A DNA stretch of 39,807 nt from Minisyncoccota bacterium (GTDB taxonomy: Bacteria > Patescibacteriota > Minisyncoccia > Minisyncoccales > Minisyncoccaceae), in NCBI GenBank assembly GCA_028693895.1, contig JAQUUL010000002.1, forward strand, positions 1 through 39,807. Reading direction: 5' to 3'. The translations under genes and the position numbers were made by a program. Under the pieces are notes generated by a model. It was not told the DNA's origin and made no database searches. It saw only the letters and a program-made list of their open reading frames with translations. Shown piece by piece: positions 7,660 through 19,599 of this stretch (position 1 is the first letter of the stretch; the number at the start of each line of letters is the position of its first letter).

Positions 7660-8787
7660 ATGATAGTTTTGGCAATAGAAACAAGTTGCGATGACACAGG
7701 AATTAGTATTATTAAGTCTAAAAATTCTAAAAAAATAGATTATAATAATTTTGAGATACTCTCCAATTTAACTAATTCACAAATTGATGTACATAGAGAA
7801 TATGGAGGGGTTTTCCCTGCTCTCGCTAAAAGAGAACATCAAAAAGCGCTTGTTCCTCTATTAATTAAATCATTAAAAAAATCTGGATTATTAAAAGAAA
7901 GAAAAAAAGAAATAGACAGCAAAAAAATATCTAAAATAAAAATAAATCTTGAAAAGAATGAATTACTTTTTGAAGAATTAAGAGAATTTATTAAAAAGTA
8001 CGATGCTCCAGAAATAAATAAAATTGCAGTAACTATTGGCCCCGGACTTGAACCTTGTCTATATACAGGAATAAATTTTGCTAAATCTCTTTCTTTTTAT
8101 TGGAATATTCCAATTGTTGGAATTAATCATTTAGAGGGACACATTTTATCTAGTTTTTTAAGTTCCAATGAAAAATTAAAGCTTCCAACAATTGCTTTAA
8201 TTATTTCTGGAGGAAATACACAATTAATATATTTTGAAAAAATTGGGAAATACAAAATAATTGGCGAAACAAGAGATGATGCAGCTGGAGAATGTTTAGA
8301 TAAAACAGCTAGGATATTGGAATTACCCTATCCTGGAGGACCAGAAATATATAAAAAAGCTAAAGAATGCAAAACAAATAAATACAAAATTAAACTTCCT
8401 CGTCCAATGAAACATGAAAAGAATTACGATTTTAGTTTTTCTGGCCTTAAGACAGCAGTTCTTTATCATTCTAAAGAAAATAAAATTAATGACAATTATG
8501 TCAAAGAAATGTGTTATGAAATAGAAGCATCTATTATTGATGTTCTTCTTTATAAAACATTAAAAGCAGTAAAAGAATTTAATGTTAAATCATTAATATT
8601 AGGAGGTGGAGTTTCCGCAAACAAGAAATTAATCAAAGAATTTAAAAAGAACTCTCCAGTTGATATCTTTATACCAAAGCCTTTGTTTTCAGGAGACAAT
8701 GCCTCGATGATTGGCTTAGTTTCAATATATTCACCTAATATAAAAAAATTAATAAAACCGAAACCTAATTTAAAAATAAATGAATAG
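7660..8787 (+). CDS. tsaD: tRNA N6-threonylcarbamoyladenosine synthase subunit TsaD
   Basis: TsaD transfers the threonylcarbamoyl group to A37 of ANN-decoding tRNAs, working with TsaB and TsaE; tsaE is at 35489. At 375 residues it is slightly long because of a Lys-rich insert (about residues 80-115, KKEIDSKKISKIKINLEKN) between the REYGGVFPALAKREH motif and the catalytic fold. ASKHA signatures are present: GPGLEPCLYTGINFAK, the metal site HLEGH, ISGGNTQL and GGGVSANKKL. It is the first gene of a plus-strand operon with PrsW (8-base overlap) and Hsp20. Confidence 0.95.
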   Translation: MIVLAIETSCDDTGISIIKSKNSKKIDYNNFEILSNLTNSQIDVHREYGGVFPALAKREHQKALVPLLIKSLKKSGLLKERKKEIDSKKISKIKINLEKNELLFEELREFIKKYDAPEINKIAVTIGPGLEPCLYTGINFAKSLSFYWNIPIVGINHLEGHILSSFLSSNEKLKLPTIALIISGGNTQLIYFEKIGKYKIIGETRDDAAGECLDKTARILELPYPGGPEIYKKAKECKTNKYKIKLPRPMKHEKNYDFSFSGLKTAVLYHSKENKINDNYVKEMCYEIEASIIDVLLYKTLKAVKEFNVKSLILGGGVSANKKLIKEFKKNSPVDIFIPKPLFSGDNASMIGLVSIYSPNIKKLIKPKPNLKINE

Positions 8788-15170: not shown

Positions 15171-15253
15171 TGGGCGGGGCGGGACTTGAACCCGCACGGG
15201 ATGATCCCCTATGCCCCTCAAGCATAGATGTCTGCCATTTCCATCACTCGCCC
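15171..15253 (-). tRNA. tRNA-Leu(GAG), 5' end overlapping rplS
   Basis: Class II tRNA with a long variable arm. The anticodon stem TATGC/GCATA encloses TTGAGGG (GAG). Acceptor GGGCGAG pairs with CCCGCCC with one A-C mismatch. The first 10 bases are also the last codons and stop of rplS. No encoded CCA. Confidence 0.9.
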
Positions 15254-15681
15254 TGGCTTCCTTGTTTTATTTTTAATCTTGCCTTCCTTCCTTTAGCCTC
15301 TCTTAGGTAGTATAATTTTGATCTTCTTACCTTTGAGCTTCTAATAATTTCTATCTTTTCAATAAAAGGTGAATGAAGTGGGAATACCCTTTCCACTCCT
15401 ACACCATCAATAACTTTCCTTACGGTTATTGTAGCTGAAATACCTTTTCCATGTTTTCTAGCTAAAACAACTCCTTCAAAAACCTGAATTCTTTCTTTTA
15501 CCTTATTATCTCTAACATCGGTAATTTTTTGGTAAACCTTAACAGTATCACCTGGTTTTACATCAGGAATTTCTTTTGTTGCTGGAGTTTCTTCTTTAGT
15601 TTCTGTGTTGTTTTCTTCTTCAACAACTTCTTCTTCAGTTTCGACTTCAGTATTTTCTTCTTTTTTTGTTTCTTCTGTCAT
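15244..15681 (-). CDS. rplS: 50S ribosomal protein L19 with acidic N-terminal extension
   Basis: L19 sits at the 30S-50S interface. Residues about 38-145 are the L19 fold: [35 protein letters not shown], then [40 protein letters not shown]. In front of it is an extension of about 35 residues, almost all Glu/Thr/Val ([20 protein letters not shown]), absent in E. coli L19. The gene lies between tRNA-Val(GAC) upstream (20 bases) and tRNA-Leu(GAG). The stop codon TGA and the codons GGC GAG are inside the tRNA, so 5' tRNA processing would remove the stop. The leader AAAAATATG has no Shine-Dalgarno. Confidence 0.93.
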
Positions 15682-15701: not shown

Positions 15702-15778
15702 TGGTGGGCGTATCCTGACTCGAACAGGAGGCCTTTACGATGTCAACGTAACGCTCTAACCAACTGAGCTATACGCCC
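15702..15778 (-). tRNA. tRNA-Val(GAC), CCA encoded
   Basis: Acceptor GGGCGTA, anticodon stem TTACG/CGTAA, loop TTGACAT (GAC). A73 plus CCA (15702-15704). It is upstream of rplS, with a promoter at 15800-15828. Confidence 0.95.
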
Positions 15779-15828: not shown

Positions 15829-15840
15829 ATAATATATGGG

Positions 15841-15914
15841 TGCGCGTGGATGGACTCGAACCATCGACCCCAGCTTTATAAGAGCTGTGCTCTAACCACC
15901 TGAGCTACACGCGC
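15841..15914 (-). tRNA. tRNA-Ile(UAU)
   Basis: A clean cloverleaf: acceptor GCGCGTG/CACGCGC, D arm GCTC-GAGC, anticodon stem CAGCT/AGCTG, loop CTTATAA, T arm GATGG-TTCGAGT-CCATC, A73, no encoded CCA. The anticodon is UAU, which reads AUA directly. Most bacteria use a CAU tRNA modified to lysidine by TilS for this codon. Its first base directly follows the ftsH stop codon. Confidence 0.92.
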
Positions 15915-17741
15915 TTAACTTATTATCTCTTCAAATTCTTCTCTTTCAATTGTTTCTTTTTCAATCAATCTTTTCGCTATTTTATCTAAAACCTCCCTAT
16001 TCTTAATTAATATCTCTTCTGCTTTTTTCTTTGCTTCTAATATAATTTTACTTACTTCTTCATCTATTTTTATAGCTGTTGATTCAGAATAATTTCTACT
16101 CTCTACTTCACTTTCTAAAAATACATCAGATTCTCTTTTTCCAAAAATAATCGGACCCATATCAGACATTCCATATTTCTTAACAATATTTCTTGCAATA
16201 TTACTTGCTTTATTCAAGTCATCTGAAGAACCTGTTGTTGTTTCTCCAAAAACAATTTTCTCAGCTATATGTCCACTTAAAAGAATTTGCATTTCTGCTT
16301 CAAATTCTTTTCTATTTCTAAGCATTTTCTCTTCTTTAGGAACTTTAAGAGTATATCCTGCTGCCATTCCTCTACCAATAATTGAAATTTTCCTCACTGG
16401 TTCTGCGTTTGAACATTTAGCACTAACCAAAGCATGCCCTGCTTCATGATAAGCAATAATTTCTTTTTCTTTATCAGTCATAATATGGCTTTTTCTTTCT
16501 GTTCCCAATAACACTTTTTCAATTGATTCTAATAGTTCTTCTTGAGAAATATTTTTACTATCATTCTTTGCTGCCAAAAGCGCTGCCTCATTAAAAACAT
16601 TTGATAAATCGGCTCCTGAAAAACCTGGTGTCCTTTCGGCTACCTCTCTAATATTAATATCCTCTCCTAAAGGCTTTCCTCTTGAATGGATACCTAAAAT
16701 ATCTTCTCTTTCCTTTATATCAGGTAGATTAATAACAACTTTTCTATCAAATCTTCCCGGTCTTAATAATGCTGCGTCTAATACATCTGGCCTATTTGTT
16801 GCTGCTAAAATAATAATTTTATTATTTTGTTCAAAACCATCCATTTCAGTTAATAATTGATTTAATGTTTGTTCCCTTTCTTCGTTTCCTCCTGTCATCG
16901 CTGGACCCCTTGTTTTTCCAATACTATCAATTTCGTCTATAAAAACTAAACATGGCTGGTGTTTTTTTGCTGTAGCAAATAAACTTCTTACTCTTCCTGA
17001 CCCAACTCCTACAAACATTTCAACAAAAGAAGAACCTGCTACTGAAAAGAAAGGAACATTACTTTCTCCTGCAACTGCCCTAGCAAGCAATGTTTTTCCA
17101 CAACCTGCAGGACCAACTAATAAAACTCCTTTAGGAATTCTTGCTCCCATTTTTAGATATTTTTGAGGATTTTTCAAAAAGTCTACTATCTCTTCAAGTT
17201 CTTGTTTTTCTTCTTTTAATCCTGCTACATCCTTAAATGTTATTTTTTCTTTAGGATGACCTTCTGCCCCAAAAATCTTTGCTTTTGTTTTAGTAAAATC
17301 AAAGGTTTGAGCGGCACCAGCTTTAGCATTTTTAAAAATTATTGAGAAAAAAATAATAATTAAAATTATAGGAATAATAAATACCGCTAAAAATGTTAAA
17401 ATTTCCATCAAAGAATCATCTTCTTCTTCAAAAATGAATAAAATTTCTTTTAACTTATTTTGTTCAACCCCATATCCAATTAAAGCCTGACTTAATGTTT
17501 CTCCTGTTTCTTTTTTACTTAAAGCTTCCGTATCATCTTTATATATAATAGAAATATCGTTCTTTAAAACTTTTATTTCTTTTATTTTTCCTTGATTAAC
17601 TTCATCAGCTAATTGAGTAATAGAAATTTCTTCAATACTTTCTTTAGATATGTTAAATAAACCAAAAACACTACCAAGCACAAAAAAGATCAGTATTATT
17701 ATTAAAATATTCTTAATAAGACCTTTAATCGGGCTTTTCAT
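15915..17741 (-). CDS. ftsH: ATP-dependent zinc metalloprotease FtsH
   Basis: Membrane-anchored AAA+ protease of 608 residues that degrades misfolded and regulatory membrane proteins. Transmembrane helices lie at about residues 10-28 and 115-136, flanking a small outer domain. Walker A GPAGCGKT is at 210-217, Walker B LVFIDEIDSIG, and the second region of homology (AATNRPDVLDAALLRPGRFDR) follows. The zinc motif HEAGH is in IIAYHEAGHALVSA, with the third ligand Asp in TTGSSDDLNKAS. It starts 6 bases after the S1-domain gene, and the TAA stop is immediately followed by tRNA-Ile(UAU) with zero spacing. Confidence 0.97.
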   Translation of the reverse strand: MKSPIKGLIKNILIIILIFFVLGSVFGLFNISKESIEEISITQLADEVNQGKIKEIKVLKNDISIIYKDDTEALSKKETGETLSQALIGYGVEQNKLKEILFIFEEEDDSLMEILTFLAVFIIPIILIIIFFSIIFKNAKAGAAQTFDFTKTKAKIFGAEGHPKEKITFKDVAGLKEEKQELEEIVDFLKNPQKYLKMGARIPKGVLLVGPAGCGKTLLARAVAGESNVPFFSVAGSSFVEMFVGVGSGRVRSLFATAKKHQPCLVFIDEIDSIGKTRGPAMTGGNEEREQTLNQLLTEMDGFEQNNKIIILAATNRPDVLDAALLRPGRFDRKVVINLPDIKEREDILGIHSRGKPLGEDINIREVAERTPGFSGADLSNVFNEAALLAAKNDSKNISQEELLESIEKVLLGTERKSHIMTDKEKEIIAYHEAGHALVSAKCSNAEPVRKISIIGRGMAAGYTLKVPKEEKMLRNRKEFEAEMQILLSGHIAEKIVFGETTTGSSDDLNKASNIARNIVKKYGMSDMGPIIFGKRESDVFLESEVESRNYSESTAIKIDEEVSKIILEAKKKAEEILIKNREVLDKIAKRLIEKETIEREEFEEIIS

Positions 17742-19512: not shown

Positions 19513-19527
19513 ATATATCATATTATG

Positions 19528-19599
19528 AGGCGTGGGCGGGAATTGCACCCGCGTATAAGAGTTTTGCAGACTCTTGCCTTACTGCTTGGCCACCACGCC
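19528..19599 (-). tRNA. tRNA-Cys(GCA)
   Basis: Acceptor GGCGTGG/CCACGCC, anticodon stem AGAGT/ACTCT, loop CTGCAAA (GCA), U73 as expected for Cys, no encoded CCA. It lies 20 bases downstream of the rbfA stop. Confidence 0.95.

Follow-up and report, generated by a model that had tools for sequence, protein, structure and literature searches.

Results

A tRNA-Ile(UAU) gene next to ftsH

The window, by which we mean the whole stretch of 39,807 nucleotides analysed here (G+C content 30%), lies in contig C31 of a draft genome belonging to Patescibacteria/Paceibacterota (479,201 bases in 44 contigs, 96.6% complete). Its minus strand carries a tRNA gene that the original prediction had read as tRNA-Ile with anticodon UAU on the strength of the loop CTTATAA, with no strand named; as positions 32-38 are CTTATAA, positions 34-36 are UAU. 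ARAGORN also placed a tRNA-Ile(TAT) on the minus strand, at 15839-15914, and the Rfam RF00005 match at 15841-15914 (71.4 bits, E 8e-14) ranks second of the 16 tRNAs in the window. The minus-strand sequence is GCGCGTG TA GCTC AGGTGGTTA GAGC A CAGCT CTTATAA AGCTG GGGTC GATGG TTCGAGT CCATC CACGCGC A. All four stems are paired, the discriminator is A73, and no CCA is encoded, the bases after the gene being CCCAT.

The ftsH ORF ends one base ahead of the tRNA start, and tRNA-Val(GAC), rplS and then a run of tRNAs follow downstream on the minus strand (Table 1). No terminator-like site was found on the minus strand in the interval from ftsH to tRNA-Ile(UAU), in a scan that is in itself no evidence of function. 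Since ftsH adjoins the tRNA and no such site separates them, the two are likely to be co-transcribed. A tRNA-Leu(GAG) call at 15171-15253, with a score of just 37.9 bits, shares 10 bases (15244-15253) with the 3′ end of rplS.

Table 1. Positions in the window of tRNA-Ile(UAU) and of the genes discussed with it.
Feature	Position	Strand	Basis or remark
tRNA-Ile, anticodon UAU, predicted AUA decoder	15841..15914	minus	ARAGORN, Rfam, covariation in 21 homologues
Anticodon loop CTTATAA (C32 U33 U34 A35 U36 A37 A38)	15876..15882	minus	sequence; unchanged in 21 relatives
ftsH	15915..17741	minus	directly upstream of tRNA-Ile(UAU), same direction; TIGR01241 746.9 bits
tRNA-Val(GAC)	15702..15778	minus	next downstream of tRNA-Ile(UAU); order kept in most relatives
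rplS (bL19)	15244..15681	minus	downstream of tRNA-Ile(UAU); TIGR01024 122.9 bits
tsaD (t6A37 synthesis)	7660..8787	plus	TIGR03723 334.2 bits

Conservation of the tRNA was assessed in 40 relatives, and the UAU tRNA pattern was found in 21 genomes, its own included, with ftsH just upstream in all 21. Across these homologues, which come from relatives within the order, the loop CTTATAA is invariant and standard pairs fill 99.3% of pair cells (80.4% in shuffles). Double-sided changes occur at 13 of 21 pairs (8.0 in shuffles), with a total of 73 compared with 18.7 in shuffles, and the covariation score is 0.518, against 0.133 in shuffles and at most 0.10 with the partners slid. Compensatory changes fall in the acceptor, anticodon and T stems. 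The fold is not a product of chance, because its stems covary in 21 homologues while the whole loop stays CTTATAA; the complete cloverleaf of the original prediction is borne out by this covariation and by the pairing of all four stems. The minimum free energy fold of the single sequence gave no cloverleaf, which was recovered from the homologue alignment.

AUA decoding capacity of the host genome

AUA was expected to be common in this window, and it does account for 35% of the Ile codons (326 of 922) counted in 20 long ORFs, a share that makes an AUA reader indispensable. The profile TIGR02432 detected no TilS above the cut-off of 93.6 bits in the host genome, the best match reaching 26.7 bits. 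A weak match of 22-27 bits on contig C33 was rejected as TilS, its ORF being MnmA at 350.7 bits, and MnmA is the sole PP-loop match in the genome. The suspicion that TilS might be missing is thereby supported. The profile likewise gave no match above cut-off in any of the 20 further genomes examined from the same family, which makes an assembly gap an unlikely cause.

Two CAU tRNAs were found in the genome, one elongator-Met-like and one initiator-like (no 1-72 pair, A11-U24). A third, of the tRNA-Ile2 type, was not found among the 38 tRNAs of the draft, a list that also has no tRNA-Trp, tRNA-Tyr or tRNA-Thr(GGU); these may be missing through assembly gaps, introns or divergence, and a missed third CAU tRNA is thus possible in this genome. 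The combination of tilS with a lysidine-type tRNA-Ile(CAU), the arrangement that would speak against the original prediction, was looked for in the host genome and not found. Heavy AUA use, together with CAU tRNAs found only of the Met type, supports the importance as an AUA decoder that had been proposed for tRNA-Ile(UAU).

Isoleucyl-tRNA synthetase and anticodon-loop modification

Inspection of the IleRS sequence had been suggested along with the original prediction. The host enzyme scores 828 bits to 8c8u, 778 to T. thermophilus IleRS (1ile), 759 to human cytoplasmic IleRS and 327 to S. aureus IleRS (1ffy), and the C-terminal CxxC...CxxC zinc motif of E. coli IleRS is absent from it. Its closest matches, up to 74%, are in Patescibacteria / Candidatus Paceibacterota genomes. 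Judged by these scores the enzyme is of the eukaryote-like IleRS2 type rather than IleRS1. All 30 further Patescibacteria IleRS sampled are closer to this enzyme than to that of E. coli, whether or not TilS is present. IleRS2 was therefore rejected as a marker of TilS-less genomes only and, being present in TilS-bearing relatives too, cannot alone explain a switch to tRNA-Ile(UAU); it is possibly a pre-adaptation for the switch instead. An IleRS2-type enzyme may accept a tRNA-Ile with U34.

MnmG was not found in the host genome (best match 17 bits, cut-off 525), which makes a modification of U34 by MnmEG improbable and is consistent with a bare U34. The presence of tsaD in the window leads us to expect t6A37, a determinant for bacterial-type IleRS (PMC9976931).

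Distribution of TilS and tRNA-Ile(UAU) in Patescibacteria

A sample of 287 Patescibacteria genomes, drawn evenly across the phylum, was surveyed for TilS and for UAU tRNAs. TilS scores were bimodal: 75 genomes had TilS above cut-off, at 123.8-205.8 bits, and the next matches scored 53.9 and 50.7 bits. The two weak TilS-like ORFs (G100:C4:466-987, 54 bits; G134:C18:6052-6501, 51 bits) belong to genomes that both carry a UAU tRNA, and are possibly TilS relatives or remnants. A strict UAU-tRNA pattern matched 89 genomes, of which 88 were kept after a check of the anticodon stem, every one of them TilS-less; the sole genome with both TilS and a pattern match (G255) was rejected, with one of five anticodon-stem pairs formed. 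A strict UAU tRNA with a sound stem was thus present in 88 of 212 TilS-less and 0 of 75 TilS-bearing genomes (Fisher's exact p = 7.5e-15, a value that overstates independence as the genomes are related).

Neither TilS nor a strict match was found in 124 genomes, and 80 of these were searched with a looser pattern, which identified UAU tRNAs with sound anticodon and T stems in 57, mostly with the loop CTTATAC. One further UAU tRNA in TilS-less genomes came from another search and four from inspection. Altogether 150 of the 168 TilS-less genomes examined by strict pattern, looser pattern and inspection have a UAU tRNA; in the other 18 it was not matched by the patterns. The strict pattern was applied to all 75 genomes with TilS, and looser patterns to eight of them. 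Intron-containing UAU tRNAs were sought in TilS-less genomes that had no UAU match, and this reading was rejected for the six genomes with tRNA-like candidates: G029, G089, G121 and G217 have intron-free UAU tRNAs, whose variable loops are of an unusual length and had escaped the patterns, whereas G064 and G126 had candidates that are not tRNAs.

Two elongator-type CAU tRNAs were present in three of eight TilS-bearing genomes and in none of the TilS-less genomes in the same comparison. CAU tRNAs flank tilS in many TilS-bearing genomes, several of which have initiator, elongator and Ile2-like forms; tilS lies close to CAU tRNAs at L121, L122, L123, L126, L131, L134, L137 and L143. Family f46 includes many TilS-bearing genomes and also G148, a TilS-less genome with a UAU tRNA, and for this reason the switch from TilS to the UAU tRNA was probably not a single old event. 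The state without TilS and with tRNA-Ile(UAU) is the majority state in the sampled Patescibacteria. The original prediction held that UAU tRNAs are reported only in a few lineages; this is true of the reports, which name few, but not of the phylum sampled here.

Discussion

Probable replacement of the lysidine system

Taken together, these data indicate, with a probability of about 90%, that tRNA-Ile(UAU) is the only dedicated AUA reader of the cell and replaces TilS and tRNA-Ile2(CAU). The UAU anticodon would read AUA by ordinary pairing and the tRNA would be charged with isoleucine directly, so that the cell could dispense with TilS and with lysidine at C34. The tRNA would be expressed from the ftsH unit, t6A37 probably strengthens both codon binding and charging, and U34 is predicted to be unmodified and to avoid AUG. 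The loss of TilS probably went hand in hand with that of tRNA-Ile2(CAU). For the phylum, a scenario to which we give slightly less than an even chance is that the lysidine system, absent from about three quarters of the sampled genomes, was lost repeatedly in favour of tRNA-Ile(UAU), that the phylum-wide IleRS2 eased its loss, and that small ribosomes or features of the tRNA itself (for example C38, present in many UAU tRNAs) stop a bare U34 from misreading AUG.

AUA might instead be read through an undescribed modification, made by an enzyme of a new kind that acts on U34 or on C34 of a Met-type CAU tRNA. This would account for AUG avoidance, which a bare U34 leaves unexplained, and the modification ava2C34 was itself described only in 2024 (PMC11938285); no such enzyme is required, however, as an unmodified UAU tRNA works in M. 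mobile on that organism's own ribosomes (PMC4014445), and we consider the proposal unlikely. It is very unlikely that the UAU tRNA is redundant, with tRNA-Ile2(CAU) and TilS hidden in the unassembled part of the genome or too divergent to detect. Some 3.4% of the genome is missing along with the tRNAs named above, and Lactobacillus plantarum is reported to have both CAU and UAU tRNAs-Ile (the title of a paper cited in PMC9976931), but such redundancy is difficult to reconcile with the lack of TilS above cut-off throughout 20 family members, with bimodal TilS scores and no sound-stem UAU tRNA in any TilS-bearing genome of the survey, and with second elongator-type CAU tRNAs being confined to TilS-bearing genomes in the comparison made.

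That the gene is an unused copy of another tRNA, such as tRNA-Ile(GAU), decayed or recently mutated, is barely credible: its 73% identity to the host's own tRNA-Ile(GAU) is what such an origin would leave, yet compensatory changes maintain three of its stems across the order, its loop and its place after ftsH are conserved, and AUA is heavily used with no other reader found.

Relation to known systems

The lysidine system performs the same task, reading AUA as Ile, through an enzyme and a CAU tRNA-Ile2 that were not found here. According to PMC4014445 and PMC4013482, Mycoplasma mobile and three hemoplasmas have no TilS and have a tRNA-Ile with UAU in place of CAU; the present genome likewise has a tRNA-Ile(UAU) and no TilS above the cut-off. 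In M. mobile the change is accompanied by a compensatory one in IleRS, and the ribosome contributes to AUG avoidance (PMC4014445). The M. mobile mutation falls in the C-terminal zinc domain of an IleRS1, whereas the enzyme described here is of the IleRS2 type and shows no such zinc domain. Where E. coli has Trp905, M. mobile IleRS reportedly has Arg, a finding attributed to Taniguchi et al. 2013; the present enzyme showed no aligned counterpart of this position. The eukaryotic cytosolic tRNA-Ile(UAU) is likewise paired with an IleRS2-type enzyme, that of human scoring 759 bits as given above, and its UAU anticodon is pseudouridylated.

The same exchange of tRNA-Ile2(CAU) for tRNA-Ile3(UAU) is listed for 17 bacterial genomes, among them those of Bifidobacterium, Mycoplasma and Neorickettsia (PMC8450103), and for 19 species (PMC4013482). 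Patescibacteria are not named in the passages concerned, and the share of genomes affected is far larger here. The type of swap is therefore already known from Mycoplasma mobile, bifidobacteria and Neorickettsia, and what is new is its phylum-wide extent and its association with an IleRS2-type IleRS. No report of a phylum-wide swap in Patescibacteria was found in the open-licence literature, and one may exist elsewhere.

TilS counts as an essential and almost universal enzyme of bacteria. Should some 74% of the genomes sampled from one very large phylum do without it, the textbook account of AUA decoding would not hold for much of bacterial diversity. Within the phylum there are also many natural pairs of relatives, one with TilS and one without, for asking how a bare UAU tRNA obtains isoleucine and avoids AUG. 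For annotation, failure to find tilS in a genome of this kind does not point to a faulty assembly.

Other features of the tRNA set

The host genome encodes a tRNA-Arg(GCG) (C37:1530-1601; L008 1500-1572), and no tRNA-Arg(ACG) is among its 38 tRNAs. Bacteria normally use a tRNA-Arg with ACG, read as ICG after the action of TadA, and the GCG form may be another case in which an editing enzyme has been replaced. The initiator-like tRNA on contig C1 (L041 115-186) lacks the usual GGG:CCC pairs in its anticodon stem, which has A29-U41, G30-C40 and U31-G39 instead; A1 stands opposite A72, and the T-loop is TGCAATT. In tRNA-Cys, the initiator tRNA and one elongator Met tRNA, U55 is replaced by G together with A for G18, an apparent tertiary 18-55 covariation in which a D-loop AGTAGTA or GCAGTA accompanies a T-loop TGCRA (window 19527-19599; L327, L329-L332, L334; L041 115-186; L120, L131, L137).
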